A stretch of 35,730 nucleotides of DNA from Granulicella sp. L46 (GTDB lineage Bacteria > Acidobacteriota > Terriglobia > Terriglobales > Acidobacteriaceae), in assembly GCF_009765785.1 (NCBI RefSeq), contig NZ_LMUT01000003.1, positions 93,310-129,039 of the forward strand, written 5' to 3'. Positions 8,353 through 24,317 of the stretch are shown here, one piece after another (position 1 is the first letter of the stretch; each line of letters starts with the position of its first letter). The notes beneath the pieces are model-generated. The model did no database searches. It saw only the letters and a list, made by a program, of their open reading frames with translations, and was not told the DNA's origin. The position numbers and the translations under genes are program-made.

Positions 8353-8632
8353 TCTCCCAGGGGCTAAAGCCCTTTGGTTGGGTGTTGCGATTGTCCGGGC
8401 TAAAGCCCGGACCTATCTCAGAGGCAAAGACAGGGGCAACGGCAAAAGCGAAAGAAGAAGCAGATTCCCGGAGGGAATGACAGAAAGAAAAGCAAGGGCA
8501 AGAACGAAGGCAACAGCAGATTCCCGGAGGGGATGACAGCCGGAAAAGCAAGGGCAACGGCAAAGGCCAATGCGGGGGTCTCTCCACTCCGCATCACAAA
8601 GACAAAGGCGTGATGCTCCGGTCGAGATGACG
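8353..8632 (+). repeat. Composite dispersed repeat, full copy A
   Basis: The parts in order are as follows. First is a palindrome GGGCT-AA-AGCCC (8361-8372). Second is an 8-bp-arm palindrome TCCGGGCT-AA-AGCCCGGA (8394-8411), then ACCTATCTCAGAGGCAA. Third is a purine-rich GGCAA/CAACGG tract with two copies of the AGCAGATTCCC...GGGAATGACAG module (8457-8483 and 8514-8539). Last is the tail GGGGTCTCTCCACT, a hairpin with GCATCAC at 8591-8597 and GTGATGC at 8610-8616, and the end motif CGGTCGAGATGACG. The same order recurs at 18342 and 23959. No coding potential is credible. Confidence 0.85.
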
Positions 8633-8665
8633 AGATTATCGGCAGAAGAGAACGGACGCGATTCG

Positions 8666-9865
8666 CTAGGGTTTGGGGTGCTTGGGGGCTGGCTTGGCAG
8701 CCTTGCGGGCGGCTTTCTTGGCGGCTTTGGAGCCGGGCTTTGCCGGTTCGGCTTCGGGGTGGGCTTCGGGCTCGGGCTGGGTGCCGGGGGGGAGGATGCG
8801 GCGGCAGATGTTGCCTTCCAGGCGGTAGGTCTTGGCGATGGTGCGGCCGGGCTTGATGAGGCCAGTGGTGGGGTCGGGTGCGGGGATGGGCTGGTCGGCG
8901 GCCAGGACGCGGTAGGTGAAGGTGGGGAGCTCGAGGGCGGCTAAGGGTCCCTTGCCGTAGGGGTCCTTGGTGGCGCCTAGCTTCACGGGCAGGTAGCCGA
9001 CGATGTTGCGTTCGGCGAAGCCGGTCTCGTAGCGGTGCTTTTTGGTGTTCCAGGTGAAGACGCGGATCTGGTTGAAGTCGTAGGGGAGGCCGGCTTTGTA
9101 GGGGGAGAGGACGGTGACGTAGACGGGGATGGAGGTGATGGTGTTGCCGTTGTCGAGGATGCCGGAGTCGGGGTCGTCGACATGGGTGAGGATGTAAGCG
9201 CCGACGATGCGCTGGCCTTCGGCGTAGCGAAGGAGGGAGTCGGGGGCGGAGACCTCGAGGAGGCGGCTGAAGACCCAGCCGGTTTGACCTTTCGCATCGC
9301 GGACGAGCCACCAGTCTTCATAGACGGGGCCTGCAGGCGGGGCGTTGGGATCGGATTGCGCAGGCTGGGCTCCGGGAGTGACGGGCTTGGTTACGGAGGC
9401 GCGCTGGAGGAGGCTGAGGGTTCCGTTCGGGGTGAGCAGGTAGAGCTTGTCGGTGAGGCGGCCGGGGGTGACGTGGAGGTACGCGTCGTCGCTGGTGGTG
9501 GCGGTGGCGACTACGGGGTCCTTGGCGTGATCTTTGCGGAGAGTGTCGAATTTGTCGGCGATGTCTTGCGGGGCGGTGAGGCGTTCTTCAATCCAGCCGA
9601 TTTCGCCGCTGGGGGTGCGGACTTTGACCCAGCGGCGGGCGTGGTCGAGGACGACGAGTTGTTCGCCGTTGGTGGCGGTGCCGGTGCGGTTGGAGACAGC
9701 GGCGACGCGGTCGCGGAGGAAGGTCTGCTTGGAGGTGACGTAGACGTACTTATCCGCGGGCGCGGTGCGGAAGTGGGAGCAGCCGGAGAGCGCGCAGGTG
9801 AGGGCGATCGCTACGAGGACACGCGCGAGGGACCGGTTCAACCGCTTCGATGGAATTTGCTGCAT
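8666..9865 (-). CDS. Lipoprotein with SH3-like domains
   Basis: The protein is a predicted outer- or inner-membrane lipoprotein of about 399 aa. The signal peptide (RSLARVLVAIALTCALSGC) ends in a lipobox LSGC, so processing at that cysteine is expected. After it come stretches resembling bacterial SH3 repeats: TFLRDRVAAVSNRTGTA with WVKVRTPSGEIGWI, and a second WWLVRDAKGQTGWVFSRLL. The C-terminus is a lysine/alanine/proline-rich tail (KAAKKAARKAAKPAPK). The open frame runs 45 codons further upstream, but the ATG at 9865 puts the signal peptide at the N-terminus. No clear ribosome site is seen. Bacterial SH3 domains often bind cell wall, so an envelope role is inferred; no specific function is recognised. 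Confidence 0.75.
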   Translation of the reverse strand: MQQIPSKRLNRSLARVLVAIALTCALSGCSHFRTAPADKYVYVTSKQTFLRDRVAAVSNRTGTATNGEQLVVLDHARRWVKVRTPSGEIGWIEERLTAPQDIADKFDTLRKDHAKDPVVATATTSDDAYLHVTPGRLTDKLYLLTPNGTLSLLQRASVTKPVTPGAQPAQSDPNAPPAGPVYEDWWLVRDAKGQTGWVFSRLLEVSAPDSLLRYAEGQRIVGAYILTHVDDPDSGILDNGNTITSIPVYVTVLSPYKAGLPYDFNQIRVFTWNTKKHRYETGFAERNIVGYLPVKLGATKDPYGKGPLAALELPTFTYRVLAADQPIPAPDPTTGLIKPGRTIAKTYRLEGNICRRILPPGTQPEPEAHPEAEPAKPGSKAAKKAARKAAKPAPKHPKP

Positions 9866-10015
9866 GGTTGGGTGATGCCTTTGGAGGTTGCTGCGATGTA
9901 TGGTCGCTGCATCCAGAGTAGCGCGAAGTGGGCAGAGCTTTAGTGTATGCGCGGATACGGCGGGGTGGGTGGTTCGGATTTGGGATTGGGTGGGCGACAC
10001 GAGGCGCCGGCCGGA

Positions 10016-11077
10016 TTATTGCGGCACTTTGAAATTAAGGGTGATCGTCGTATTCAGGTCTGCCGGCTGCCCGTTCAGCATGGCAGGCTCATATCTCCAC
10101 TGGCGCACCGCATCCAGCGCCGCTGCGGATAGCGCAGCATCCGGGCTGCTAACAATCTTGGCATCCTTGACGGAGCCATCCTTGCCGATCAGCGCAGAAA
10201 GCACCACCGTGCCTTCTTTCCTCATTGCGATATAACTTTGAGGAAAGATGGGTTCGACTCTGTGGATCAGCGACGGTAGCTGGATACCACCACCCTTCGG
10301 CACAACGATGACTACAGGTGGAGGAGGCTCCTTTGCGTCGGCGGCCGGGGTAAACGCGTCATCATCGGCCGCAACCAGGTTCGACTCCTCCAGCGTCGCG
10401 ACCAAGCGCTTCTTGCCGACATACAAAATCTCTATGTCGCCCGGAAAATAATGGTCTTGGAATTTCTGCACCTTGCCATAGACGTTGATCAGACTGCCAT
10501 TTTCATGACTCGCCGTCAGCACCGGCTGCGCTTTCAGGAAGCAGTACGTTGGCCATACCGCCCCGAACGAAGGCGGGGTATTGTTCGGAGCTGCGGTACG
10601 TACCGATCCAACACATTCCAGCTCGGTGGTGGACGTCTTCGTCGTGAAGTGTTTGAGCTGCCGGCCGTCGGACGGTGAATCCTTCATGGTCAGAAACCCT
10701 GGAGTCATCACCCAGTACAGTCGATGCGGCATGCTTGGGATGCTCGTCCTGCCCGGCAATTCCAGCACCTTGTTTGCGGCTGTGCGCCATTCGACGCTCG
10801 ACTGGTCCCCCTGCGTCCACATAGCCTTGCTCCCTTTCTCCGTAGAGTGCCAGTAGTCGAACATGCCCTCCCCATCCGGCTGGCCGCTGATGTCGAACGA
10901 CTGGTAGTGATAGCGAATGTGCCAGGGTTTCATGTCTGGTGAGGCGTAGTCATAAAACGGGGCGGCCGCGCGGAGGAGCGCATCGGGATCGGCGGCGGGC
11001 GGAGTGGCCGTGTCGTTTTGCGCCAGAAGAATTGGGGCAAAGGCGAAGGCAAGAGCAACGAAGGAGCACTTTTTCAC
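10016..11077 (-). CDS. Exported protein with TonB C-terminal domain
   Basis: The likely start is GTG at 11077, giving a 353-aa protein with a short signal peptide (KKCSFVALAFAFAPILLAQ). The upstream half of the long open frame lies antisense to the beta-propeller gene and is arginine/histidine-rich, so it was discarded. The last 90 residues are a TonB C-terminal domain: PIFPQSYIAMRKEGTVVLSA, GKDGSVKDAKIVSS, AALDAVRQWRYEPAMLNGQP, ending TITLNFKVPQ. The middle (PWHIRYHYQSFD, GMFDYWHS, YFPGDIEILYVGKK) is not recognised. There is no N-terminal anchor with a proline-rich linker like classical TonB, so an energy-transducing role is doubtful. Its neighbours are also exported proteins. Confidence 0.8.
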   Translation of the reverse strand: MKKCSFVALAFAFAPILLAQNDTATPPAADPDALLRAAAPFYDYASPDMKPWHIRYHYQSFDISGQPDGEGMFDYWHSTEKGSKAMWTQGDQSSVEWRTAANKVLELPGRTSIPSMPHRLYWVMTPGFLTMKDSPSDGRQLKHFTTKTSTTELECVGSVRTAAPNNTPPSFGAVWPTYCFLKAQPVLTASHENGSLINVYGKVQKFQDHYFPGDIEILYVGKKRLVATLEESNLVAADDDAFTPAADAKEPPPPVVIVVPKGGGIQLPSLIHRVEPIFPQSYIAMRKEGTVVLSALIGKDGSVKDAKIVSSPDAALSAAALDAVRQWRYEPAMLNGQPADLNTTITLNFKVPQ

Positions 11078-11148
11078 GCCCCAAGCGTAGCAGGATTTTC
11101 CAGCCGCGTCCGGAAATGCCAGAGGATGCTGAAGCGCTTGGGGCGGGG

Positions 11149-12363
11149 TTAGTGGGTGGTGGCGATGGCGCTGACTACGGCGGCGTTGGTGCCGCTGCCG
11201 GCGCTGCCGGACGAGGTGAGCGCTCCGGTGGTGCCTATGGCGAAGAGCTCTATGCCGGTGGAGGTGTTGTAGCCGGAGGTGATGAGGTAGCCGCTGGTGT
11301 TGTCGATGGCGAGCGCGCCGATGGAGGTGGGGCCGGTGAAGGGGCTGCCAGAGATGGCCGTCAGGACGGCGTTGGTGCCGATGGAGAATCCGGAGATGGT
11401 GCTGTCGGTCTTGTTGCCTACGTAGACGAAGGTGGAGGCGGTGTTGACGGCGACCGAGCGGGGGCCGTTGCCGGCGGTGTAGGTCTTGAGGGCTGTGGGG
11501 ACTCCGGCGGTGGTGGCGGAAAAGACGGCCAGGCCGTTGGTGGCTGCGGCGTAGAGATAGTTGTTGGCGTCGATGGCAACCGCGTAGATGCCGATTTGGG
11601 TGGTCGCGGGGGCGACGGGGTTCTGGGGAGTGAGGGCGCCGGTGGAGGTGTCTAAGGTGAAGGTCTGGAGGCCTCCGGTGCCGAGGGCGACGGCAACGTA
11701 ATCGCCGCTGGGAGCGACGGTGACGTCGAGGGATGCGTTGCCGGTTGTGCCGGCACCGGGTGTGATGGCGCCGGTGGTGTTGAAGGTGAGAGCGCCGGTG
11801 GAGGTGTTGATGGAGTATTCCGAGAGGGTGAGGCTGTTGGCGTCGAGGACGAAGAGCCATTGGCCGTCGGGCGAGACGGCGAGAGAGACGGCGCTTTCGG
11901 TGATGAGAGGCATGCCGCTGGAGAGGATGTTGAGAGCTCCGCCGGTCTCGATGGAGTAGCCGTAGAGATAGCCGGTGGAGATGCCGGGGTTGCTGGCGGT
12001 GTAGAGGAAGGTGTTGGCAGGGGTGACGGCCATGGCGATGGGTTGGTAGCCGAAGGAAAAGGGCGCACTGGTGGCGTTGGTGGTCAGGTTACCGTTGTCG
12101 AGGTTGTAGCCGTTGACGTTGTTGGCGGAGGCGGAGGGGTTGGCTACGTAGGCGAAGTCGGTACCGGTGGCTGGGCAGGTGACGGTGGAGGATGGGACAC
12201 AGGGGGCGGCGGGGCAGCTGGTTTTGCCTTCGCAGACAAAGAAGCTACCGCAGCCGCTTAAGAGGGTGATGGCCGAGAGCAGGGCGAGGGCGCAGAGGTG
12301 CGCGGGGTTCGGGCGGAAGATAGAACGGCGGGGGGCAGGCACAGTCGGACTCTCCATAGCCAT
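11149..12363 (-). CDS. Beta-propeller lipoprotein (lactonase/YncE-like)
   Basis: This is a 404-aa predicted lipoprotein. The signal region (CALALLSAITLLSGC) ends with lipobox LSGC at about residues 35-38. The mature part is built of repeated blades with the pattern IAMAVTPANTFLYTAS, VSLAVSPDGQWLFVLD, RSVAVNTASTFVYVGN and IGALAIDNTSGYLITSG, each roughly 45-50 residues apart. This is the sequence pattern of the 6-phosphogluconolactonase/YncE seven-bladed propellers. Alanine, serine, threonine and glycine dominate. Whether it has lactonase activity cannot be judged; many such acidobacterial surface propellers are uncharacterised. The start could be either of two ATGs two codons apart. It lies upstream of the TonB-domain gene on the same strand with a 71-bp gap. 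Confidence 0.82.
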   Translation of the reverse strand: MAMESPTVPAPRRSIFRPNPAHLCALALLSAITLLSGCGSFFVCEGKTSCPAAPCVPSSTVTCPATGTDFAYVANPSASANNVNGYNLDNGNLTTNATSAPFSFGYQPIAMAVTPANTFLYTASNPGISTGYLYGYSIETGGALNILSSGMPLITESAVSLAVSPDGQWLFVLDANSLTLSEYSINTSTGALTFNTTGAITPGAGTTGNASLDVTVAPSGDYVAVALGTGGLQTFTLDTSTGALTPQNPVAPATTQIGIYAVAIDANNYLYAAATNGLAVFSATTAGVPTALKTYTAGNGPRSVAVNTASTFVYVGNKTDSTISGFSIGTNAVLTAISGSPFTGPTSIGALAIDNTSGYLITSGYNTSTGIELFAIGTTGALTSSGSAGSGTNAAVVSAIATTH

Positions 12364-12573
12364 CGGGCAGTGGGTTTGCCCTCTGATAGTAGTTCATTGG
12401 ATCAGGTGCACCCTGTTGGAGTGCTGAAGCTTAGGACGGATGGGAGGGGGAAGGGTTTCGCTGGGTGCGGAAGAATTGTTATGGCGGGCGGGATGGAAGT
12501 GTTTGGCAATCCGGGGGGAGCGGTGGAACGTCTCATGAAGGGAGGGCGGCTTTCAACTGCGAGGGCTAGGCCG

Positions 12574-12579
12574 TATCAT
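12574..12579 (+). promoter_or_regulatory. Possible -10 element close to the tatA/B start
   Basis: TATCAT matches five of six bases of the -10 consensus and ends 10 bases before the ATG at 12590. No Shine-Dalgarno lies between them. If used, transcription would begin at or next to the start codon and the mRNA would be leaderless. Confidence 0.35.
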
Positions 12580-12589
12580 CTGAGTCTGT

Positions 12590-13195
12590 ATGCCGAGTTT
12601 TCCTGACAGCATTTTTCTGTTTGTGTTGGCGCTGCTGCTGTTTGGGCCGAAGCGGTTGCCGGTGCTCGCGCGTGAGCTGGGTAAGTGGGTGGGGGAGTTT
12701 CGGCGGGCTAGCAATGAGTTCAAGATGCAGATGGAAGATGAGCTGCGGCTGAGTGAGCAGGCGGAACGGAATAAGCAAATTGCCGCGATGGAGGCGGCGG
12801 CGCCTGTGGCGCCTGCGATTACGGAGCCGGTGGCGGATGAGGTGAAGGTGTCGGATATGACGGTGGCGGAGGTGGAGACTGGAGAGGCCGCGGAGGGTTC
12901 AGTGGAAACCCAGGTCCCAGAAGCGGGACCTGGGGCACCCGGATTTGGGGTGGGGGACGCGGGGGTTGGGACGGAATATGAGGTGGTGGATGGGGTGAAG
13001 ACGGTGCTGCCGATTGCGGTGTCGGGGGAGTTGAAGATTATGCCGCCGGCTACGGGGTTGCCGGCGGCGGCGGCGAATGGGGGGCCACGGAATAGTGCGC
13101 TGAAGGGGTTGCTGGATGCGATTCCTGCGGCGGAGACGGCTGCAGATGAGACGTCCTCAGCGGAGTCGACGGAGACTACAGTTCATGGCAACTGA
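12590..13195 (+). CDS. Twin-arginine translocase TatA/TatB-family subunit
   Basis: The N-terminus PDSIFLFVLALLLFGPKRLP is a short membrane helix followed by the FGP hinge. The amphipathic helix VLARELGKWVGEFRRASNEFK follows; together these define TatA/TatB proteins. The remaining 140 residues are an acidic, proline/alanine-rich tail. The protein recruits or forms the pore for folded twin-arginine substrates with TatC. At 201 aa it is longer than TatA (about 60-90) and closer to TatB length. The last codons overlap the start of tatC by 11 bp. Residues about 107-120 are encoded by a repeat-like palindrome (see separate entry). Whether it acts as TatA, TatB or both cannot be decided here. Confidence 0.9.
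   Translation: MPSFPDSIFLFVLALLLFGPKRLPVLARELGKWVGEFRRASNEFKMQMEDELRLSEQAERNKQIAAMEAAAPVAPAITEPVADEVKVSDMTVAEVETGEAAEGSVETQVPEAGPGAPGFGVGDAGVGTEYEVVDGVKTVLPIAVSGELKIMPPATGLPAAAANGGPRNSALKGLLDAIPAAETAADETSSAESTETTVHGN
12909..12934. repeat. 10-bp inverted repeat inside the tatA/B tail
   Basis: CCCAGGTCCC (12909-12918) and GGGACCTGGG (12925-12934) form a perfect palindrome around the six bases AGAAGC, followed by GGCACCC. It is read in frame as part of the acidic tail (TQVPEAGPGAPG). The symmetry is unusual for coding DNA and suggests insertion of a REP-type repeat into a tolerant linker. Confidence 0.7.
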
Positions 13196-13970
13196 TCTGG
13201 TAGATCGCGCACGGAGCGCGGTGCATGAACGGGCGGAGCTGCCGGGGATGAGTTTGATGGAGCACCTGGAAGAGCTGAGGAATCGGCTGTTCTGGATCTT
13301 CGGATATTTGGCGGCCGGGTTCGTGGTGGCCTGGATTTTTCGGAATCGGCTGGTGGGGTATATCCAGAAGCCGCTGGTGGATATCGGGCTGAAGATGACG
13401 ATGACGCATCCTACGGATGCGATCAATTTCTTTATTAAGACGTCGCTGGTGTGCGGCGCGATTATTGCCTCGCCGTTCATTCTTTATCAGGTGTGGCTGT
13501 TTATTTCGCCGGGGATGTATCAGAACGAGAAGAAGTATGTTTGGCCGTTTATGACGGCTACGGTGGGGCTGTTTCTGGCGGGAACGTGGTTTGGGTATCG
13601 GTATGTGCTGCCGGGCGCGATGGTGTTTCTGATCCAGGATTTCGGCAAGAACTTTACGCACATGATCACGATTGACGATTACACGGGATTCTTTCTGGCC
13701 GTGATTCTCGGGTTGGGCATTACGTTTGAGATGCCGATTGTGATTTTCTTCCTGGCACTGTTTGGGATTGTGGATGCGAAGTTCCTGCTGAAGAATTTTC
13801 GGTATGCGGTGATGGCGATCTTTCTGCTGGCTGCGGTGATTTGCCCGGATCCTAGCCCGGTGGGGATGTGCTTGTTCGCGTCGCCGATGCTGGTGCTTTA
13901 TTTCGTGGGGGTGGGGGTGGCGTGGATTGTTACTCGGAACCGGAAGAAGAAGGACGTTGTGGCGGCATGA
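13185..13970 (+). CDS. tatC: Twin-arginine translocase subunit TatC
   Basis: This is the core receptor of the Tat pathway in the inner membrane. The 261-aa product (E. coli 258) begins MATDLVDRARSAVHERAELP. The hallmark MSLMEHLEELRNRLFW precedes the first helix. Several further hydrophobic helices follow, with the conserved FISPGMYQNEKKYVWPF and LGITFEMPIVIFFLALFGI segments. The open frame extends upstream, but the ATG at 13185 has GGAG (13171-13174) ten bases before it and overlaps the upstream stop by 11 bp, which implies translational coupling. It ends in a charged NRKKKDVVAA tail. Confidence 0.96.
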   Translation: MATDLVDRARSAVHERAELPGMSLMEHLEELRNRLFWIFGYLAAGFVVAWIFRNRLVGYIQKPLVDIGLKMTMTHPTDAINFFIKTSLVCGAIIASPFILYQVWLFISPGMYQNEKKYVWPFMTATVGLFLAGTWFGYRYVLPGAMVFLIQDFGKNFTHMITIDDYTGFFLAVILGLGITFEMPIVIFFLALFGIVDAKFLLKNFRYAVMAIFLLAAVICPDPSPVGMCLFASPMLVLYFVGVGVAWIVTRNRKKKDVVAA

Positions 13971-14004
13971 TTGAGGTGCGATTGAGCTTGAAAGAGCCCC
14001 TCAG

Positions 14005-14057
14005 CGGCTAAAGCCGTTTTGTGCTGGGTGAGTTTATGGCACGACTGAAGTCGTGCC
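14005..14057. repeat. Two REP-like palindromes after tatC
   Basis: The first is CGGCT-AA-AGCCG (14005-14016) followed by TTTT, which could also act as the tatC terminator. The second is a perfect 9-bp-arm palindrome, GGCACGACT-GA-AGTCGTGCC (14038-14057). Both have the two-base RA centre shared by palindromes elsewhere in the window. Confidence 0.65.
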
Positions 14058-14139
14058 CCTTCGAGATAATTACGGATGACAGGCTGCAGGACTGTGCTTC
14101 TGCCCGTTCGAAACGAATCGTACTGCCGAGGTTGCTGAG

Positions 14140-15100: not shown

Positions 15101-15248
15101 AGGGCAGCGGCAGAAGCAGATTCCTGCGGGATGGTAGCTGGGAAAGCCAAGGGCAACAGCAAAGACAACAGCAGCTGCAACGGCAAGAGCAACAGCAACA
15201 ACCAATGCAGGGATCTCTCCACTGCGCTTCGCTTCGGTCGGGATGACG
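15101..15248 (+). repeat. Composite dispersed repeat, partial copy D
   Basis: This copy lacks the leading palindromes. It has the AGCAGATTCCTGCGGGATGG module (15117-15136), a long purine-rich GGCAA/CAACAG tract and the tail GGGATCTCTCCACT...CGGTCGGGATGACG. It fills most of the gap between the peptidase and terC genes. No riboswitch of the type often found before TerC-family genes was recognised here. Confidence 0.75.
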
Positions 15249-15317: not shown

Positions 15318-16226
15318 ATGACTCCGCTCTCGTATTGGATTACCTTTCATGTCGCGCTGGTCGCCCTGCTGGGGGTGGAGTATTTGGTGCACCTCGCGGT
15401 GCCGAATGCCCGGCGCAAAGCGATGTGGGCGATCGGGATGTGGGTGGGCGCGGCGCTGTTGCTGGCGGTGCTACTGAGCCGAGCGTTTGGCGCTACCGGG
15501 GCGACGCAGTACCTCGCGGGCTATGCGGTTGAACAGGCGATGTCGCTGGATAATTTGTTTGTGTTCCTGCTGCTGTTCCGGCTGTTTCGGATTCCGCCGG
15601 GAAAGCAGCCGCGGGTGTTGTACTGGGGGGTGGTGGGGGCGGTTGTGCTGCGCGGGCTGTTTATTGCGGGCGGCGTGGGGCTGCTGAATCACTTTCATTG
15701 GGTTGAGTATGTGTTTGGAGCGTTGCTGCTGGTGGCGGCAGTGCGGTTGCTGAAGCCGGAGCCGACCGAGGATAAGCCCGAGCGTACTCCGGGGTGGCTG
15801 AAGTGGCTGACGAAGTGGCATCCGATCAGTGAGAATCAGGATCATTTTCTGGTCGTGGAGAATGGGCAGCGCATGGCTACCGTGATGCTGCTGGCGCTGG
15901 TCGCGGTGGAGTTGACCGATGTGGTGTTTGCGGTGGATTCCATTCCGGCGGTGTTGAGTATTACGCGGCAGCCGTTTTTGGCGTACGCGTCGAACATTAT
16001 GGCGGTGATGGGGCTGCGGTCGTTGTATGTGCTGCTGGCCGCGGGGTTGGCGAAGCTGCGATATCTGCATTATGGGCTCGCGGCCGTGCTGGGGTTTGCT
16101 GCCGTGAAGATGCTGCTTGCGGATTGGGTGGAGATTGGGCCGGGGGTTTCGCTGGCCGTGATTGCGGGGTTGATGGCTGTGACGGTGGGGGTGTCGATGG
16201 TGGTGGGGCGGCGGGCAGTGGTTTAG
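15318..16226 (+). CDS. TerC/Alx-family integral membrane protein
   Basis: The 302-aa protein has about eight to nine hydrophobic helices. TerC-family signatures are clear: YAVEQAMSLDNLFVFLLLF with the acidic Glu and Asp in membrane segments, the second acidic motif VAVELTDVVFAVDSIPAVLS, and the ASNIMAVMGLRSLYVLL segment. A cytoplasmic loop at about 148-180 is hydrophilic. Family members (TerC, Alx/MeeY) are linked to tellurite resistance or Mn2+ export, and some metallate exported proteins; which applies here is unknown. AGGAG lies seven bases before the ATG. The gene is monocistronic by spacing, with a large inverted repeat downstream. Confidence 0.92.
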   Translation: MTPLSYWITFHVALVALLGVEYLVHLAVPNARRKAMWAIGMWVGAALLLAVLLSRAFGATGATQYLAGYAVEQAMSLDNLFVFLLLFRLFRIPPGKQPRVLYWGVVGAVVLRGLFIAGGVGLLNHFHWVEYVFGALLLVAAVRLLKPEPTEDKPERTPGWLKWLTKWHPISENQDHFLVVENGQRMATVMLLALVAVELTDVVFAVDSIPAVLSITRQPFLAYASNIMAVMGLRSLYVLLAAGLAKLRYLHYGLAAVLGFAAVKMLLADWVEIGPGVSLAVIAGLMAVTVGVSMVVGRRAVV

Positions 16227-16374
16227 TTCTCAGTTGTTCGTTCTCAGTTGTTAGTTGATAGAGCTGGAGATGCGGCGAGAAAAGTGGGGGCGTCTCGATG
16301 CTCGGGCTTACTAGAGACGCGGTCGCACACGGTGGGAACTGAGAACTGACAACTAATAACTGACAACTAGGCTG
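16226..16374. repeat. Large inverted repeat of 7-bp units between terC and aroB
   Basis: The left arm (16228-16260) is made of units such as TTCTCAG, TTGTTCG and TTGTTAG repeating every 7 bp. The right arm (16337-16369) is the complementary series (GAACTGA, GAACTGA, CAACTAA). Inside lies GCGTCTC paired with GAGACGC. The whole could fold into a long hairpin. Similar arms occur at 20345 and 28393. Confidence 0.7.
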
Positions 16375-16394
16375 GCGGGGTATTCTGAAGGACG

Positions 16395-17525: not shown

Positions 17526-18283
17526 GTGTCGTGGATGAGGTGAATGCTGGGGCGCGGCCTGGGGGGGAGGCGGATGAGGCTGCGGCGGCGGAGCATGTGC
17601 GGGAGATTTTTGATTCGATTGCGCCTAGTTATGATTTGCTGAATCATCTGCTGTCGATGGGGTTGGATCGGCGGTGGTGGGGGCGGGCGGCTCGGAGTTT
17701 TCGGGAAGTGCTGGCGCGGCCGAATGCTCGGGTGCTGGATATTTGTTGTGGGACTGGCGATATGACGGCGGCGTTGTTGAAGGAGCGGCCGTTGAGTGCG
17801 GAGCCGGTGATCGGGCTGGATTTTTCTGGGGAGATGCTGGAGCGGGCTCGGGTGAAGTATGACGGCGCGAACGCGGTTTGGGTGAAGGGCGATGCGATGC
17901 ATCTGCCTTATGCGGACGAGAGTTTTGATTTGGTGACGGCGGCGTTTGGGTTTCGGAATTTGACGAATTATGCGGAGGGGTTGGCGGAGATTTATCGGGT
18001 GCTGGCGCCGGGGGGGCGGATTGGGATCCTGGAGTGCAATCAGCCGGATGGGCTGCGCGGGTTTGGATATGGGATTTATTTTCGGCATGTGCTGCCGGTG
18101 GTGGGTGGGATGATCTCGGGGAAGAGGGCGGCGTATCGGTATCTGCCGGAGTCGGTGGCACGGTTTCCGCGGCCTACGCAGATGCTGGCGATGATGAAAA
18201 ATGCTGGGTTCGAGGAGGGGGCTTGGGATGGGTATTTGTTGCGGGCTGCGGGGTTGTATCGGGGAGTGAAGCGGGCCGGGTAA
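17522..18283 (+). CDS. ubiE: UbiE/MenG quinone C-methyltransferase
   Basis: This is a SAM-dependent methyltransferase that methylates demethylmenaquinone (and 2-polyprenyl-benzoquinol in ubiquinone producers). The 253-aa length matches E. coli UbiE (251). [24 protein letters not shown] is the N-terminal family signature, [12 protein letters not shown] the SAM loop, [10 protein letters not shown] and [16 protein letters not shown] the later motifs. Acidobacteria usually make menaquinone, so the MenG role is more likely; that is inference. The gene starts with GTG overlapping the aroB stop by four bases, so aroB and this gene form an operon. An 11-kb stretch around it uses an unusually G-rich codon set. 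Confidence 0.94.
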
Positions 18284-18341
18284 AGGGAGGTTGATGGTTC
18301 TCCGTTTTCGTTGTTGGATTTGGGGCGGGTAGAGGGAGGTA

Positions 18342-18721
18342 GTCCCAGGGGCTAAAGCCCGGATCCTTGGGCGGTTTGAATGTCCGGGCTGAAGCCCGGA
18401 CCTATCTCAGAGGCAAGAGCAACCGCAAGGACAACAACAACCGCGAGAGAAGAAGCAGATCCCTGCGGGATGACAGCCAGAAAGGCAAGAGCAACGGCAA
18501 CCGCAACAGCAAAGCAAAGGCAAGAACAACGGCAAGAGCAACAGCAAAGGCAAAGGCAAGAGCAACGGCAACCGCAACAGCAAAGGCAAAGGCAAGAACA
18601 ACGGCAAGAACAACGGCAACGGCAAAGACAAAGGCAACAGCAACGGCAACAGCAACAGCGAATACAGGGGTCTCTCCACTTCGCATCATGATGAGGCCAT
18701 GATGCTTCGGTCGAGATGACG
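18342..18721 (+). repeat. Composite dispersed repeat, full copy B
   Basis: The order is as in copy A: palindrome around GGGGCTAAAGCCC (18349-18360), 8-bp-arm palindrome TCCGGGCT-GA-AGCCCGGA (18383-18400), and ACCTATCTCAGAGGCAA. Then the AGCAGATCCCTGCGGGATGACAG module (18454-18476) and an expanded GGCAA/CAACGG tract (about 18490-18660) are seen. The tail hairpin is GCATCATG (18683-18690) with CATGATGC (18698-18705), then CGGTCGAGATGACG. It occupies most of the gene-free stretch 18284-18894. The open frames across the tract encode only QRQEQRQ-like repeats. Confidence 0.85.
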
Positions 18722-18894
18722 TTTCGGTCGGGGTGATTGGGCGCGGGGAGCTGAATGTGGCGTTGAGGGAGTGGGGCGTTGTATGGCGTTTGCGGAGTTG
18801 AACAGGTATGCTCAGGGCGATGGAATGGGCGATGGGGCAGAGGGCGACGTGCGGGGTGGATGCGGGTGGTTGAGGCTGGCCGGAGCATGGAACG

Positions 18895-20340
18895 ATGAGT
18901 CCGATGAGTCAGACGCAGGCTACGGCGGCGAAGCGATCGGCGGCACAGTCGTCGCTGCTGGCGGCGATGGGAATTACGCTGCTGAAGCTGTTGACCGGGA
19001 TTTTGGCGGGCTCGCTGGGGATGCTGAGCGAGGCGGCGCACTCGTTTATTGATTTGATTGCGTCGGCGATTACGCTGCTGACGGTGCGGGCGGCCGATAT
19101 GCCCGCGGATGAAGAGCACAACTACGGGCATGGGAAGCTGGAGAGTTTGTCGGCGGCGTTTGAGACGCTGCTGATGGTGGGGTCGTGCGTGTGGATTGCG
19201 CGCGAGGCGATTGAGCGGATGGTGCATCACACGCGGCTGGATCTGCGCTGGTCTGTGTGGCCATTTGCGGTGCTGCTGCTGTCGATGGCGGTGGACTTTA
19301 CGCGGTCGCGGTCGCTGCACCGCGTGGCGCAGGAACACAGAAGCGATGCGCTGGAGGCCGATGCGGTGCACTTTGGGACCGACATCTGGTCGTCGGCCGC
19401 GGTGTTTCTTGGGTTGCTGGCGACGTTTGCGGGAGAGAAGCTGCATGTGCCGGCGCTGACCTATGCGGATCCGATTGCTGCGCTGATTGTGGCGGCGATT
19501 ATTTTGCGGGTGACGTGGCGGCTGGCGCGGCAGACGGTCGATTCCCTGCTGGATGCGACGCCGCCTGAGGTGCGGGAACAGATTCGGCGGGACTTGATTC
19601 ATGACCTTGAGGCAGAGGATGGTGTGCTGTCGGTAAACCGGGTGAGGGTGCGGCGGTCAGGGTCGAATTATTTTGTGGACCTGACGTTGAGCCTGCCGAG
19701 GAAGCTGACGTTTCAGCGGTCAGAACAAATTACGTTTGCGGCTACCGAGGCGGTGCAGAAGCTGCTGCCGGGAGCGGATGTAGTGATCCATACGGTGCCG
19801 ACGGCTTCGTTGGGAGAGAGTGTGTTCGACAAGGTGCGGGCGGTGGCGGCGCGGTCGAATCTTTCAATTCACGACGTGAGCGTTCGGCAGTATGACGGAG
19901 CGCTGCACGTGGAACAGCATCTCGAGGTGCCGGAGACGATGACGCTGCGCGAGGCGCATGACGTGGTGACGGCGCTTGAGACCGAGATGAAGCATGAGGT
20001 GCCGGGGATTGCGACGCTGCTGACGCATATTGAGAGTGAGCCAGCAACGATTGCGGAGGCTGCGCAGATTGATCCCAGCAAGAATTTGGAGCATCAACTA
20101 CGGACGACCGCTAGTCATTTTCCGGAGATCCTGGATATTCACGAGATCACGGTGACGCGCGGGCATGGCGGCGCGGCGAATAGCGTGCAGGTGAACCTGC
20201 ATTGCACGCTGCCGGATGATCTTCCAATGGAGGCTGTCCACGAGGTGATTACGAATTTTGAAAGTGAGTTTCGGCTGGACCATCCGCAGGTGTCGAGGGT
20301 GTTTATTCATCCGGAGCCGGCTACGGATAATCGGCGGTGA
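18895..20340 (+). CDS. Cation diffusion facilitator metal exporter with extended C-terminus
   Basis: This is a CDF-family proton-coupled efflux transporter for divalent metals such as Zn2+, Co2+ or Fe2+. The six-helix membrane part spans about residues 20-210. Metal-site HxxxD motifs are visible in helix 2 (His49 and Asp53 in EAAHSFID) and helix 5 (ADAVHFGTDIW). DEEHNYGHGKLE follows helix 2. At 481 aa it is much longer than typical CDFs (about 300). After the first cytoplasmic dimerisation domain (about 216-302), two further stretches of similar size and ending (about 310-384 and 398-476, finishing LLTHIESEP and RVFIHPEPA) look like repeats of it. The start could be ATG 18895 or 18904. Metal specificity is not evident. 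Confidence 0.88.
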   Translation: MSPMSQTQATAAKRSAAQSSLLAAMGITLLKLLTGILAGSLGMLSEAAHSFIDLIASAITLLTVRAADMPADEEHNYGHGKLESLSAAFETLLMVGSCVWIAREAIERMVHHTRLDLRWSVWPFAVLLLSMAVDFTRSRSLHRVAQEHRSDALEADAVHFGTDIWSSAAVFLGLLATFAGEKLHVPALTYADPIAALIVAAIILRVTWRLARQTVDSLLDATPPEVREQIRRDLIHDLEAEDGVLSVNRVRVRRSGSNYFVDLTLSLPRKLTFQRSEQITFAATEAVQKLLPGADVVIHTVPTASLGESVFDKVRAVAARSNLSIHDVSVRQYDGALHVEQHLEVPETMTLREAHDVVTALETEMKHEVPGIATLLTHIESEPATIAEAAQIDPSKNLEHQLRTTASHFPEILDIHEITVTRGHGGAANSVQVNLHCTLPDDLPMEAVHEVITNFESEFRLDHPQVSRVFIHPEPATDNRR

Positions 20341-20344
20341 GGGG

Positions 20345-20417
20345 AAGTTGTTAGTTGTTCGTTCTCAGTTGTCAGTTAGGGGTGAGAACTAACAACTGAG
20401 AACTGAGAACTGAGAAC
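20345..20417. repeat. Inverted repeat of 7-bp units before the PASTA gene
   Basis: TTGTTAG, TTGTTCG, TTCTCAG and TTGTCAG units run up to about 20378. After GGGG they are mirrored by GAACTAA, CAACTGA and GAACTGA units ending at 20417. A long, imperfect hairpin with a tiny loop is possible. It ends 21 bp before the ATG of the next gene and may act as a terminator for the CDF gene. Confidence 0.65.
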
Positions 20418-20438
20418 TTTCTGTATGCTGGGGCTGCG

Positions 20439-21287
20439 ATGAAACCGTTTGTGAAATGGACGCTGTTGGGGATGGCGATGCTGGCGGTGATGCTGGTGTC
20501 GGCTGGGATTACGCTGCGGTTTGCGCTGCATGGGCACGAGGTGACGATTCCGGATTTTGCGGGGATGACTGTGGGGGAGGCCAGCCAGGCGGCGCTGCGG
20601 ACGGGCGTGGATCTGAATATCGAGAACAAGTTTTATTCGACCACGGTGCCCGCGGGGAGGGTCTTGTCGCAGGCGCCGGCGGCGGGGTCGCGGGTGCGGC
20701 ATGGGTGGCAGGTGAGGGTGACGGAGAGTTTGGGGCCGCAGCAGGTGACGATTCCGGATGTGGTGGGAGACCCGATGCAGGAGTCGTCGATGGAGATACG
20801 CAAGATGCAGCTGGATTTGGGGACGCTGGCGCATATTGGCGCGCCGGGCGATGCGGAGATGACGCTGGCGCAGACGCCGCCACCCAATGCGGGGGTTGAC
20901 CAGCCTCGGGTGAATCTGTTGCTGAGTTCGTCGGTGAATGCGTCGAGCGCGTTTGTGCTGCCGTCGTTTGTGGGGATGAGTTTTGGGGCGGCGAATCGGG
21001 CGGCGATTGGGCTGGGGTTGAAGGTGGCGACGATTGGCGGCGTGCCGGCTGCGGCGCCAGCGCCGGCCCCAGCGCCTGCGCCGGTGGTGCCGGGGCAGCC
21101 CGTGGTGCCGGCTGCGCCCGCCGCGCCTGTGGTGCCTAGCGGGGTGGTGACGGAGCAGTCGCCGGAGTCGGGGTTTAAAGCTAGTCGGGGGGATGTGGTG
21201 CGGTTGACGCTGGGGGCGAGTGGGGCTGCGGCGGCGCCTGTGGCTCCGGCGGCTCCCGCGGCGGTTCCGGTGCCGGTTGCGCACTAG
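20439..21287 (+). CDS. Membrane-anchored PASTA-domain protein
   Basis: The 282-aa protein has an N-terminal membrane segment (WTLLGMAMLAVMLVSAGITL). PASTA repeats begin at VTIPDFAGMTVGEASQAAL (about 34), VTIPDVVGDPMQESSMEI (about 102) and FVLPSFVGMSFGAANRAAI (about 170). The third repeat is interrupted by an alanine/proline-rich stretch (about 205-235) before VVTEQSPESGFKASRGDVV completes it. PASTA domains bind peptidoglycan precursors or muropeptides and normally occur on Ser/Thr kinases or penicillin-binding proteins; neither catalytic domain is present here. A TATGCT hexamer lies nine bases before the ATG with no ribosome site between. The role as a wall sensor or scaffold is inferred. Confidence 0.85.
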   Translation: MKPFVKWTLLGMAMLAVMLVSAGITLRFALHGHEVTIPDFAGMTVGEASQAALRTGVDLNIENKFYSTTVPAGRVLSQAPAAGSRVRHGWQVRVTESLGPQQVTIPDVVGDPMQESSMEIRKMQLDLGTLAHIGAPGDAEMTLAQTPPPNAGVDQPRVNLLLSSSVNASSAFVLPSFVGMSFGAANRAAIGLGLKVATIGGVPAAAPAPAPAPAPVVPGQPVVPAAPAAPVVPSGVVTEQSPESGFKASRGDVVRLTLGASGAAAAPVAPAAPAAVPVPVAH

Positions 21288-21358
21288 GGGCGTGCGAGGT
21301 CCCAAGGATCCCTTCGATAGCTGGAATATTGGCGACTGAGGCCCAGCTCTTCCAGGCG

Positions 21359-21425
21359 GAGAAAGAGCAAGAACGAGAGGAAGCAGGTTCCTCGCTGCGC
21401 TCGGAATGACAGCCAGAAAAGCAAG
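21359..21425 (+). repeat. Composite dispersed repeat, short fragment E
   Basis: This fragment has the purine-rich AAAGAGCAAGAACGAGAGG tract, the AGCAGGTTCC...GGAATGACAG module (21382-21411) and the following AGCCAGAAAAGCAAG. The leading palindromes and the tail are missing. It lies between the convergent PASTA and rsmB genes. Confidence 0.6.
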
Positions 21426-21430
21426 TACGC

Positions 21431-22861
21431 CTAGGGGCGGTGGAGGAGGGCGGCGAAGAAACCGTCGCCGGAGAAGTTTGCGCCGGGGAGAGTGCGGAGG
21501 TGGCCGTTGCGGAGTAGGTCGGCGGGGGGCGTGGTGAGGAGGCCGGTGGTGGCTAGCTGGTCCAGGATGGGGTCCAGGGGGAGTTGGGTGATGCCGGGGG
21601 CGGCGGCGAGAGCGGCGGCGACTACTTGTTCGTTCTCTTCGGGTTCGAGGGAGCAGGTGGAGTAGAGGAGGTGGCCGCCGGGGGCTAGGCGGGCTAGCGC
21701 GGCAGTGAGGATTTCGCGCTGGCGAGTGGCCTGGCGGGCCAGGTCGGCGGGTTGGAGGCGCTGGCGGATCTCAGGATTGCGGCTGAGGGTGCCGGTGCCG
21801 CTGCAGGGGACGTCGCAGAGGATGAGGTCGAAGAGGCCTTCGGCTTCGGGGAGGGCGGTGGCGTCGGCGTGGAGGGTTTTTGTTTGGGGGGACGTGGTCT
21901 CGAGGCGGGTGGCGAGGGCCTGGAGGCGGCGGGGGTTGGCGTCGGTGGCGAGGAGATGGGCCCCGGGGTGGCGGGCTGCGAGGATTAGGGTTTTGCCGCC
22001 GGGCGCGGCGCAGGTGTCCCAGATGCGGGTGGGGGTGGGGTGAGAGGCGGCGGCTAGCTCGGCTACGAGGCGGGAGCCGTCGTCTAGGTGGGGCAGGTCG
22101 GGGGTTGAAACCCACTCTTCGTTTTCTGAGGTCATGAAACCCGAGGTTGAAACCTCGGGGTAGCTAGAAGCTGGGGGGACAACTGGGGCGTCACCGGAGA
22201 GGAAGAGGGTGTTGGGTTGGGGCTCGGTTTGGTCGTGGGTTAGGATCGCGAGTGCGGCCGCGCGGCCGTAGTTCTGTACCCAGCGGTTGGCTAGCCAGAG
22301 GGGATGCGAGAGGCGCTCGGCGAAGGCGGCCGTTGTTTCGTAGAGTTTGGGTTGGGCGGGGGGTTGGCGGGTTAGCTTTCGGAGGATCGCGTTGACCATG
22401 CCGGCGGCGTGGGGGTGTCCGGCGGCGCGGACTAGCTCGACGGATTCGGAGAGAGCGGCATGGGCGGGGATCCGGTCCAGGTGTAGGAGCTGGAACGCTC
22501 CCATACGGAGGGCGGTGGCGACGGGAGTGGGGAGGGCCTGGTCGGGACGCTGGAGGAGGGGCTGCATGCGGGCGTCGAGGGCGATCTGCCAGCGGAGGAC
22601 ACCGAAGACGAGGGTGTGGGCGAGGTTGCGGTCGGCCTGGGAGAGGGCGGACATGCCGGGGCCGTGGAGGAGGTCGTCGGAGTGGGCGGAGGTGTCGGCG
22701 ACACGGACGAGGATGGCGAAGGCGGCGGAACGGGCGGGGGTGATAGGGGCGTGTGCGGGCGGCTGGGGCTGTGCAAAAACCTGCGCGGCGGGCCGGTTTT
22801 GCGCAGGGGTTTGCATAGGGCCATTCTTTTTAGGCGATTTAGACGATGGGGGCTTGGGCAT
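21431..22861 (-). CDS. rsmB: 16S rRNA (cytosine-C5)-methyltransferase, RsmB type
   Basis: RsmB methylates C967 of 16S rRNA. The N-terminal NusB-like helical domain is seen in AAFAILVRVADTSAHSDDLL and HTLVFGVLRWQIALD. The SAM-dependent methyltransferase domain follows, with DTCAAPGGKTL (SAM loop), DLILCDVPCSGTGTLSRNPE holding one cysteine, and LLYSTCSLEPEENEQ holding the second of the two-cysteine mechanism. The start is uncertain: ATG 22861 (MPKPPSSKS) is used here, ATG 22816 is possible, and the longest frame begins with TTG at 22951. Residues about 235-254 are encoded by REP-like palindromes (see separate entry). It follows fmt on the same strand, as in many bacteria (def-fmt-rsmB). Confidence 0.92.
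   Translation of the reverse strand: MPKPPSSKSPKKNGPMQTPAQNRPAAQVFAQPQPPAHAPITPARSAAFAILVRVADTSAHSDDLLHGPGMSALSQADRNLAHTLVFGVLRWQIALDARMQPLLQRPDQALPTPVATALRMGAFQLLHLDRIPAHAALSESVELVRAAGHPHAAGMVNAILRKLTRQPPAQPKLYETTAAFAERLSHPLWLANRWVQNYGRAAALAILTHDQTEPQPNTLFLSGDAPVVPPASSYPEVSTSGFMTSENEEWVSTPDLPHLDDGSRLVAELAAASHPTPTRIWDTCAAPGGKTLILAARHPGAHLLATDANPRRLQALATRLETTSPQTKTLHADATALPEAEGLFDLILCDVPCSGTGTLSRNPEIRQRLQPADLARQATRQREILTAALARLAPGGHLLYSTCSLEPEENEQVVAAALAAAPGITQLPLDPILDQLATTGLLTTPPADLLRNGHLRTLPGANFSGDGFFAALLHRP
22102..22158. repeat. Pair of REP-like palindromes within rsmB
   Basis: GGGTT-GA-AACCC (22102-22113) and CCGAGGTT-GA-AACCTCGG (22141-22158), 27 bp apart, lie wholly within rsmB coding sequence and keep the frame. 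They encode YPEVSTSGFMTSENEEWVST, a low-conservation linker between the NusB-like and catalytic parts. The two-base GA centre matches the intergenic palindromes. Confidence 0.75.
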
Positions 22862-22987
22862 GTGGGAATCGGTGTGGCTGTGGAAAAGCTGGGATAAATG
22901 GTAATTTGTGAACGCTGATTCAGATGGATTTGTGGATGTATTAGATTGCAAAAGTTACACAAATCATTGTATTAGAACGCTTTGCTA

Positions 22988-23923
22988 CTATGACAAATGT
23001 TCTCCTGCATGAAGTTGAAAGTCTCGAGCGAATTTGAGGCCTGAGAGGCGCGGTTTGCCTTCTAGCTGGACTTCGTCTAGGGCAAGGACCGTGTTATGGG
23101 TGGCGCCTACGAGGAGGTGGTCGGTGGAAAAGTCCAGCTGGTTGGGGGCGAGGGTCAAGGTGGAGGTTGAGGGGTGCATGCGGTGGATGAGGAAGCGCTT
23201 GCCGCGGAAGAGAGCGTGGGCTCCGGGCCATGGGGTGAAGCCTCGCCACCGATTGTAGGTCTGCTGGGCGGTGCGATGGGCTAGATCCAGGCGGCCGTCC
23301 TCGCGGGTGAGGATGGGGGCTAACGTGGCGGCGGCGTTATCCTGCGGCTGGGGGATGATCGTTCCCTGCTCCAGACCGGAAAGGGTTTGAAGTAAGAGGC
23401 TTGCACCTATCTGTGAAAGCTGTGGATAAAGCTCTGCAGAAGTGGCATCGGGGCGTATAGGAAGGCTGTGGAAACGGAGTGTATTTCCTGTGTCGAGGCC
23501 GGCGTCGAGGAGCATGGTGGTGACGCCTGTTTCGGTTTCGCCGTTGGCGACGGCCCACTGGATGGGGGCGGCGCCTCGGTATTTGGGAAGGAGGGATCCG
23601 TGGACGTTGATGTTGCCGTAGGGCGGGAGGTCGAGCATCCATTGGGGGATGATGCGGCCGTAGGCCACGACGATGATTGCGTCTGGGGCGATTTGTTCAA
23701 GTAGCGCCTGAAGGTCTGGGTTGTTCTTTAGGCGCTCGGGTTGGAGGATGGGGAGACCGAGTTTCTGGGCTAGTTGTTTGACGGGTGGGACTTGGAGTTC
23801 GTGCTTGCGGCCGGCGGGGCGGTCGGGCTGGGTTAGGACGAGGGGGATTTCGTGGCCGGCATCGACGAGGGCCTGGAGGGTTGGGACCGCGAATTCGGGG
23901 GTTCCGCAGAAGACTAGTTTCAT
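22988..23923 (-). CDS. fmt: Methionyl-tRNA formyltransferase
   Basis: Fmt formylates initiator Met-tRNA with 10-formyl-tetrahydrofolate. The 311-aa protein (E. coli 315) begins MKLVFCGTPEFAVPTLQAL. It carries the folate-site motif NVHGSLLPKYRGAAPIQWA with the catalytic Asn-His pair, the tRNA-contact loop LTQPDRPAGRKHELQVPPVK, and TGVTTMLLDAGLDTG. The C-terminal OB-like domain includes RWRGFTPWPGAHALF. The ATG at 23923 is the first sensible start. Downstream lies rsmB; upstream, def is separated by a 429-bp gap largely filled by a repeat element, so the usual def-fmt coupling is broken. Confidence 0.96.
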   Translation of the reverse strand: MKLVFCGTPEFAVPTLQALVDAGHEIPLVLTQPDRPAGRKHELQVPPVKQLAQKLGLPILQPERLKNNPDLQALLEQIAPDAIIVVAYGRIIPQWMLDLPPYGNINVHGSLLPKYRGAAPIQWAVANGETETGVTTMLLDAGLDTGNTLRFHSLPIRPDATSAELYPQLSQIGASLLLQTLSGLEQGTIIPQPQDNAAATLAPILTREDGRLDLAHRTAQQTYNRWRGFTPWPGAHALFRGKRFLIHRMHPSTSTLTLAPNQLDFSTDHLLVGATHNTVLALDEVQLEGKPRLSGLKFARDFQLHAGEHLS

Positions 23924-23958
23924 TTGTGCGGACCTCGGTGGTTCGGGTGAAGGAGGAA

Positions 23959-24317
23959 GTCCCAGGGGCTAAAGCCCAAACTCGGGGGCATGTTTAATTG
24001 CCGGGGCTAAAGCCCCGGCCTATCTCAGGTGCAAGGGCGAGGGCAGAGACAACAGCAGATTCCCAGGGGGAATGACAGAAAAAAGCAAGAGCAACGACAA
24101 CGGCAGAAGCGAGAGCAACGACAACGGCAGAAGCGAGAGCAACGACAACGGCAGAAGCAAGAGCAACGACAACGGCAGAAGCAAGAGCAACGACAACGGC
24201 AGAAGCGAGAGCAACGACAACGGCAGAAGCAAGAGCAACGACAACGGCAGAAGCAAGAGCAAATACAGGGGTCTCTCCGCTACGTCCGCAAAGGCGCGGA
24301 CTTCGGTCGAGATGACG
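23959..24317 (+). repeat. Composite dispersed repeat, full copy C
   Basis: The order is again palindrome around GGGGCTAAAGCCC (23965-23977), then CCGGGGCT-AA-AGCCCCGG (24001-24018) and CCTATCTCAGGTGCAA. The AGCAGATTCCCAGGGGGAAT module (24054-24073) follows. Then comes a tandem array (separate entry), and the tail GGGGTCTCTCCGCT with hairpin GTCCGC (24284-24289) / GCGGAC (24296-24301) and CGGTCGAGATGACG. It fills the def-fmt gap (23924-24352), in which nothing else is seen. Confidence 0.85.
24083..24261 (+). repeat. 24-bp tandem repeat array, seven units
   Basis: The core ACGACAACGGCAG recurs at exact 24-bp steps from 24094 to 24238, seven times, with only an A/G alternation between GCAAGAGCA and GCGAGAGCA. 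It lies inside composite repeat C and replaces the irregular purine tract of copies A and B. The frame across it encodes SNDNGRSE/K octapeptides but is unlikely to be a gene. Confidence 0.85.

Follow-up and report, generated by a model that had tools for sequence, protein, structure and literature searches.

Composite repeats in a Granulicella genome as probable mosaics of RAYT-element ends and CGTC-like hairpins that elsewhere flank small GIY-YIG nuclease genes

Introduction

Repetitive extragenic palindromes (REPs) of the GTAG type and REPINs, which go with REP-associated tyrosine transposases (RAYTs), are palindromes with a dedicated enzyme that acts on single strands and with gene-less satellite copies. 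Two further kinds are described in the portions drawn on here of a 2013 paper: CGTC-tagged REPs, which include the neisserial dRS3 and the rickettsial RPE-4 and RPE-6 and for which those portions report that no dedicated transposase was found, and an acidobacterial group of TIRtrons/TIRYTs, in which a RAYT-like gene lies between inverted end repeats, the motif GGGGWSAS being given for some of the terminal inverted repeats (TIRs) (Di Nocera, De Gregorio, Rocco 2013, PMC3733652). Here we analyse a composite dispersed repeat, present in three full copies (A, B and C) and three fragments (D, E and F), in a 35,730-nucleotide stretch of Granulicella sp. L46 (hereafter the window; contig NZ_LMUT01000003.1, G000:C21:93310-129039). 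The source genome is a 5.48-Mb draft in 39 contigs.

Our reading, to which we give a rough probability of 0.6, is that the full copies are mosaics built from end sequences of two kinds of small element. A full copy would join the end of a RAYT element (the head) to CGTC/TGTC-tagged palindromes (the inner module and the tail), whose hairpins would be read by shape and which are linked to small GIY-YIG endonuclease genes. This reading draws on arms that keep pairing while their letters change, on tagged palindromes bracketing one type of GIY-YIG gene, on the match between palindrome type and nuclease type, and on presence or absence of tails between close relatives.

Modules of the composite copies

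An earlier reading of the DNA letters (the sequence-only reading) had described three full copies and fragments with an ordered set of modules. This was confirmed, with starts one or two bases off those given earlier: copy A spans 8355-8632, copy B 18343-18721 and copy C 23960-24317. The tail and head arms were likewise as described. In the tail they are GCATCAC/GTGATGC in A, GCATCATG/CATGATGC in B and GTCCGC/GCGGAC in C, with loops ending in AGGC, and in the head they switch between copies from TCCGGGCT/AGCCCGGA to CCGGGGCT/AGCCCCGG. The head is laid out as two GGCTRAAGCC palindromes plus CCTATCTCAG. Copy A has two inner modules, copies B and C one each, and in B and C a tandem array of GCAA type forms the middle stretch. 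Fragment D (15101-15248) comprises a degenerate inner module, array and tail, fragment E (21359-21425) an inner-module-type palindrome without a tail, and fragment F (30579-30677) array and tail. The GCAA arrays would be slippage products next to element ends. The features are as follows:

8355..8372 (+), copy A head palindrome 1, a predicted RAYT-element end repeat; the same palindrome flanks a RAYT gene in locus L153 of a relative
8395..8421 (+), copy A head palindrome 2 with the CCTATCTCAG end, one base off the L153 form
8460..8538 (+), the two copy A inner modules (8460-8482 and 8516-8538), TGTC-tagged palindromes of the kind that stands beside GIY-YIG genes of relatives
8575..8632 (+), copy A tail, with outer stem GTCTC/GAGAT, inner hairpin GCATCAC/GTGATGC and, on the other strand, a CGTC tag at its far end
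15116..15136 (+), degenerate inner module of fragment D, located by counting along the sequence
15210..15248 (+), fragment D tail with a minimal inner hairpin
18343..18360 (+), copy B head palindrome 1
18384..18410 (+), copy B head palindrome 2
18455..18475 (+), copy B inner module
18481..18659 (+), copy B GCAA-type array of 6-base units, merged from three tandem-repeat rows that overlap
18667..18721 (+), copy B tail, arms GCATCATG/CATGATGC
21383..21411 (+), fragment E lone inner-module-type palindrome GCAGGTTCC..GGAATGACA, position counted in the sequence; the type flanks GIY-YIG genes of relatives
23960..23977 (+), copy C head palindrome 1
24000..24028 (+), copy C head palindrome 2 with a compensated stem
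24055..24077 (+), copy C inner module
24083..24262 (+), copy C tandem array of 24-base units, GCAA type
24268..24317 (+), copy C tail, arms GTCCGC/GCGGAC
30634..30676 (+), fragment F tail

Across the L46 genome the head pattern (3 mismatches) gave 32 matches versus 0 for the reversed pattern, and the tail pattern (2 mismatches) 74 versus 2. Composites are not universal: a GCAA array lies just upstream of 17 of 66 tails, an inner module within 500 bp of 17 and a head within 500 bp of 10, all of them lower bounds, as at least 450 bp of upstream sequence was present for 44 of the 66. Inverted dimers of tails are not the rule in this genome.

Covariation of the stems

Compensatory change in several stems had been taken as a sign of selection on structure, either as RNA or as single-stranded DNA. 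To measure it, 5′ and 3′ arms were re-dealt between copies and pairing was recounted, the tail insert being defined as the stretch between CCRCTNC and TNCGGTCG. Among 82 distinct tail hairpins from seven genomes of one genus (distinct inserts of at least 15 bases only; 2 of 70 entered strings were off the pattern and left out), 5.49 of 6 inner-arm positions pair, against 3.05 when re-dealt (standard deviation (sd) 0.16). The corresponding values were 3.82 against 1.72 in the 44 distinct hairpins of 80 loci listed from a wider search (see below), and in the head arms 6.69 of 7 positions pair against 5.92 (29 sites). The mean perfect arm measured 6.5 bp versus 1.3 bp after shuffling in 21 distinct own-genome inserts of at least 15 bases, and 4.3 versus 1.4 in 44 distinct inserts from the 80 listed loci; these lengths draw on 50 copies of the own genome and on 92 of the 94 others, with inserts of at least 15 bases in 22 and 49 (21 and 44 distinct). 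At an outer-stem pair whose positions the search pattern left free, 62 of the 94 copies listed have T/A, 25 C/G and 7 another combination, and both T/A and C/G occur within each of Bacillota, Bacteroidota, Pseudomonadota and Acidobacteriota. These results bear out a pairing constraint in tail and head.

Chance palindromes in low-complexity DNA, as a separate matter, are rejected on the reversed-pattern controls (0 and 2) and on the own-genome arm shuffles (1.3 versus 6.5 bp observed).

The pairing might stem from mutation rather than selection, if template switching during replication copied one arm onto the other and so produced perfect palindromes free of function. The arms are indeed often perfect, with 24 isolated non-pairing positions in the 82 distinct hairpins, and such switching could still contribute to the covariation; it leaves unexplained, however, both the conserved flanks and tag in distant phyla and the bracketing of one nuclease type (see below), and we regard it as a rather improbable account.

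We consider it very unlikely that the repeat is an RNA element, with hairpins kept as transcript terminators, stabilisers or processing sites and RNA covariation as the source of the pattern. Copies A, B and C and fragment D are intergenic, copy C lies between the same-direction genes def and fmt, and 27 of the 50 strict own-genome tails have a G facing T as their last outer-stem pair, all of which would suit such an element. Isolated non-pairing positions inside the inner stems, read on the modelled strand, were G.T 7, A.C 10 and other 7 in the 82 hairpins, and G.T 1, A.C 4 and other 3 in the own-genome and wider-search set. As G.T does not exceed A.C, there is no sign of one strand being favoured as RNA. 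Moreover, Rfam at gathering thresholds returned tRNA only within the window, and a tail palindrome lies in frame inside ubiE in two relatives (G006 and G014; L242:1441-1475 and L243:1100-1134), where it adds a short peptide. RNA as the selected molecule, one half of the earlier alternative, is thus unsupported.

Small GIY-YIG nuclease genes between palindromes

In the relative G022, one inverted tail pair encloses an intact open reading frame (ORF) that matches GIY-YIG (PF01541, 43.7 bits, cut-off 22.6), and in the L46 genome a GIY-YIG gene (C2:380722-380931) is likewise enclosed by inverted tails. The columns Y, Y, G, R, H, E and N, which we take to be the GIY-YIG catalytic residues, are conserved in 45/46 to 49/49 of the proteins. 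For the GIY-YIG protein of L367, NCBIfam offered no name; PADLOC gave weak matches only, and UPF0213 (E 0.011) was the only plausible match among PDB sequences.

Small GIY-YIG genes were sorted by the sequence motif that surrounds the second half of GIY-YIG, which yielded 49 genes of an LYxGxT type. The test counted 64 genes of 81 loci (49 LYxGxT, 14 other small and 1 UvrC-like); left out were 7 loci without the motif, 5 with an off-centre motif, 3 with short flanks and 2 duplicates. As controls we used the two longest ORFs of each RAYT or orthologue locus, 260 in all. An outward CGTC-type tag was found within 200 bp of 38 of the 49 LYxGxT genes versus 25 of the control ORFs (Fisher p 3e-22), and outward tags on both sides of 20 versus none (Fisher p 2e-18), while the other GIY-YIG genes reached 1/15 and 0/15. 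LYxGxT genes in other phyla behaved similarly (outward tag 10/11, both sides 7/11), among them cases from an Eggerthellaceae (L486), a Neomarinimicrobiota member (L492), a Bacteroidales (L497), where the pair is of tail type, and a planctomycete (L489), where it is presumably dRS3-like.

Palindrome type also follows the nuclease tree, with 13 changes versus 27.6 in shuffles and none of 200 shuffles as low (49 rows, of which 9 had no palindrome type and 1 had a fourth), in a tree that has strong support on only 6 of 46 inner branches, with 19 open, and in which near copies aid the clustering of types. One nuclease clade (L440, L445, L463 and others) is flanked by inner-module-type palindromes, often with a GCAA-type array outside, and so matches fragment E and the inner module and array of the window. 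For tail and inner module, then, the link to a tyrosine transposase suggested by the sequence-only reading was not borne out; small GIY-YIG nuclease genes adjoin these palindromes instead, and we propose their product as the candidate enzyme for both.

At another locus of the L46 genome (L467, C8:110000-111900), a GIY-YIG gene has a CGTC-type tag and a GCAA-type array upstream and a masked stretch downstream.

CGTC likeness and taxonomic spread

The five window tails end in ATGACG, which is CGTC on the other strand and forms an unpaired tag, and the four inner modules of copies A-C end in ATGACA, or TGTC on the other strand. Read on that strand, the tail begins CGTC-ATCTC and the inner module TGTC-ATTCC, and A-T pairs open the stem beside the tag (GAGAT or GAAAT opposite RTCTC or ATTTC). 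In the tail an outer stem of ~5 bp is followed by a mostly palindromic insert of 4-27 bases; the stem of the inner module has ~6 bp. Both depart from the published CGTC stem of 8-9 bp with a loop of 4-5 bases, and we therefore call them CGTC-like and place them outside the four published families. All 26 adjacent inverted tail pairs in the relatives G001 and G022 join unlike hairpins, with spacers of 45-50 or 74-75 nt.

Searched in L46 and 60 relatives, the exact tail pattern was confined to the window's genus, where 17 of the 28 genomes (17 of 61 overall) had it, in up to 109 copies and with 0 matches for the reversed control. A wider pattern, applied to one genome per species, gave at least 119 stretches, 80 of which were taken as loci (94 copies). 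Tallied by record title, with many of the records being metagenome bins, the 80 listed loci belong to Bacillota (21), Bacteroidota (16), Acidobacteriota (15), Pseudomonadota (8), Planctomycetota (5), Fidelibacterota (2), Actinomycetota (2), Spirochaetota (1), Verrucomicrobiota (1) and two candidate phyla (1 each), with 7 unassigned. Verrucomicrobiota was dropped as a host phylum, since the GIY-YIG coordinates of its record (L297) are identical to those of G017, a member of the window's acidobacterial genus, which indicates a mislabelled genome.

Presence and absence of tails within the genus

At six matched tail loci the flanks of G001 and G022 are 91-98% identical. One shared site (L375/L421) holds a tail pair with a 47-base spacer in G001 and a GIY-YIG gene between tails in G022, with the hairpin types swapped in order. 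For 12 more G001 tail pairs, chosen from 31 G001 tail loci for having no matching G022 tail locus, the flanks were located in G022 in every case, with the tail absent in 10 and present in 2; clean insertion breakpoints were not readable from this comparison. Across the 28 genomes of the genus, tail number correlates with the PF01541 count (rho 0.75, p 4.8e-6), a count that includes UvrC, in genomes that are themselves related, and at least two PF01541 matches were found in 13 of 17 genomes with tails versus 3 of 11 without (p 0.019).

Equally unlikely as the RNA account is that the palindromes are passengers of an ordinary transposase, carried inside larger elements with terminal inverted repeats: by eye, an outer inverted repeat near AGAGCAGTTTCC..TATAGGTGTAGAG accompanies some G001/G022 tail pairs, but it occurs in few of the 38 pairings listed, and the mean outer-flank score was 22.6 versus 19.1 for mismatched flanks (sd 6.9). 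This longer outer repeat surrounds the tail pairs L377, L383, L385, L393, L415 and L425 and is perhaps another miniature inverted-repeat transposable element.

Head module and RAYT elements

The tyrosine transposase sought by the sequence-only reading does accompany the head. In G022 (L153) a RAYT gene lies inside an inverted pair of a nearly letter-for-letter head, with GCAA-type sequence outward, and in G025 (L160) inside inverted variant heads with GGACTAAAGTCC, which is the REPtron/TIRtron arrangement. G022 heads also occur as inverted pairs ~160 bp apart (e.g., L372). The head is the predicted terminal repeat of a RAYT-type element (Y1 HUH transposase). It reads CCCAGGGGCTAAAGCCC and lacks the GGGGWSAS motif, and of the three full copies only B has GTAG, the tag of GTAG REPs and REPINs, in front of its head.

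A RAYT-like gene is present in 52 of the 61 genomes. The L46 genome yielded a single Y1 transposase match (C5:1470757-1470951), a short RAYT-like ORF (L081:5189-5644) that scores 51.9 bits with NCBIfam REP_Tyr_transpos, under the cut-off of 80, looks frameshifted in its second half, and is flanked on both sides by GGCTTTAGCC palindrome pairs, another GGCTRAAGCC subtype. The head mover of this genome may have been lost, despite its many dispersed GGCTRAAGCC repeats. At L368 (G022, C1:470500-472000) an inverted head pair encloses ~500 bp with other CGTC-type palindromes, apparently as nested insertions.

Least likely of all is that tails are moved by a RAYT transposase, as heads would be: the two are joined in the window and tail number follows RAYT number, but a hidden Markov model that finds 46/46 RAYT loci not used in its building detected no RAYT in the 80 tail-bearing loci (<=8 kb, among the matches listed), GTCGAGATGAC occurs in 0/70 RAYT loci of ~2-8 kb, and the partial rank correlation of tails with RAYT given GIY-YIG is 0.29 versus 0.59 with GIY-YIG given RAYT.

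Genomic setting of the window copies

Of the eight ORFs that flank copies A, B and C and fragment D, seven have a Pfam match, the ORF left of copy A being the exception. Fragments E and F sit between long ORFs, where the Pfam comparison covered 21431-22951 only. Copy B lies downstream of ubiE. The def-fmt gap that holds copy C is 432 bp long in L46. In the four closest relatives by fmt protein, G019, G013, G004 and G012, it measures 93, 24, 25 and 25 bp, and in the remaining relatives it ranges from 6 to 543 bp. A pattern search found no head, inner module or tail in this gap in the 26 other genomes of the genus with both genes. In the copy B gap no head or tail was found in 22 relatives with both genes, one of which (L233) has a single GGCTRAAGCC palindrome. 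The simplest reading of these gap comparisons would be that copies B and C came after the species split, or were lost in all the others.

Long module-free def-fmt gaps occur at loci L192-L195, L213 and L214. Short arrays of 7-base units (AACTGAG and TTAGTTC types) lie in both orientations at 16223-16256, 16337-16375, 20344-20418 and 28384-28446 of the window.

Proposed mechanism and points against it

The covarying arms are most likely to reflect recognition of shape, together with a fixed tag and flanks, by an enzyme that acts on single strands. Under the mosaic reading, the tagged palindromes that elsewhere enclose a small GIY-YIG endonuclease gene, in many cases inverted to each other so that the tags face outward, would delimit a unit, and the short-spacer pairs without a gene would be its non-autonomous form. 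When the strands separate, each palindrome would fold, and the nuclease would read the unpaired tag, the conserved flanks and the hairpin shape, not the letters of the arms, and would cut the single-stranded DNA there. Cuts at the two outward tags could free or copy the unit, and gene-less units could spread in trans. If shape and tag are indeed what is recognised, pairing would be needed and particular letters would not, so that arms could drift while they kept pairing, which would explain the covariation.

Several points weigh against this reading. All support for it is computational. Re-dealing preserves column make-up, not relatedness, so that shared descent is left in the covariation tests and accounts for some of the excess, although the outer-pair switches in several phyla make it unlikely as the full account. 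The bracketed LYxGxT type was defined after the flanks had been seen, and with all small GIY-YIG genes pooled, 39/63 have one tag and 20/63 have both. No outward tag lies within 200 bp of 11 of the 49 LYxGxT genes, and four of these have an upstream tag in the other orientation; in four of the misses (L458, L471, L481 and L482) a changed tag, CCATTCC, stands beside the same kind of palindrome. A stricter palindrome definition lowers bracketing to 9/44 on both sides (control 0/129) and 20/44 on any side (control 5/129), with a pattern that missed wobble and other stem registers; the tag-based test was added to it. Tail number tracks RAYT number too (rho 0.62), G013 and G027 carry tails but only one PF01541 match, of UvrC length, and a longer inverted repeat, possibly that of another transposon, encloses some of the G001/G022 tail pairs. 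In six relatives (G023, G007, G026, G010, G003 and G002) the def-fmt gap is 294-543 bp long and holds none of the modules sought, and the flanks of copies B and C are too diverged for their target sites and exact ends to be read.

CGTC-type REPs were left without an enzyme in 2013, and the statistical and phylogenetic linkage described here, in several phyla, names a GIY-YIG candidate that can be tested; hairpins that bracket nuclease genes are also a possible clue to how such repeats spread. We put forward only tentatively, and hold to be doubtful, the wider proposal that throughout the bacteria the mobiliser so far missing for CGTC-type palindromes is a small GIY-YIG nuclease, which would form with them a shape-reading, transposition-like system with gene-less satellites and, in places, mosaics that include RAYT ends.

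Comparison with known systems

REPINs and GTAG REPs differ from the repeats described here in that another candidate enzyme is proposed for tail and inner module and that no GTAG tag is conserved. The Ssn single-strand nucleases of Neisseria and their NTS repeats reportedly pair a GIY-YIG nuclease with a repeated sequence related to dRS3, and the conserved catalytic columns of the proteins described here fit such a nuclease; the Neisseria work is said to be concerned with natural transformation rather than with covarying hairpins or mosaics of this kind. If that work covers the pairing, our results would extend it to Acidobacteriota, to the double-hairpin form and to RAYT-end mosaics. Among the titles listed from the open-licence literature, none joins GIY-YIG with REPs, which we do not take as absence from print, and the works listed for the palindrome letters were, by title, unrelated.

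The closest likeness on the tail side is to CGTC REPs as presented in the portions of the 2013 paper drawn on here (PMC3733652). Shared with them are the unpaired CGTC/TGTC tag, the A-T pairs that open the stem, the mostly intergenic position with some copies inside genes, the inverted dimers, whose partners often differ and whose spacers are conserved, the patchy occurrence in distant phyla and, as far as the 80 listed tail loci go, an apparent lack of a link to a tyrosine transposase. In contrast, the tail here has a short outer stem and a variable second hairpin in place of the loop of 4-5 bases; the hosts include Acidobacteriota, Bacillota, Planctomycetota and others beyond the five phyla of that paper; and the palindromes flank GIY-YIG genes, where the same portions report no dedicated enzyme (PMC3733652). 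With TIRtrons, compared by their description and not by their letters, the head shares the RAYT-like gene between inverted end repeats, some of them double-palindromic, and the dispersal of the ends, whereas the window holds ends only, joined to other modules, and its head is without GGGGWSAS (PMC3733652). The earlier suggestion that the repeat goes beyond simple REP sequences thus stands in so far as the full copies are mosaics of three repeat families, each of which belongs to or resembles a kind already described in that paper (PMC3733652).

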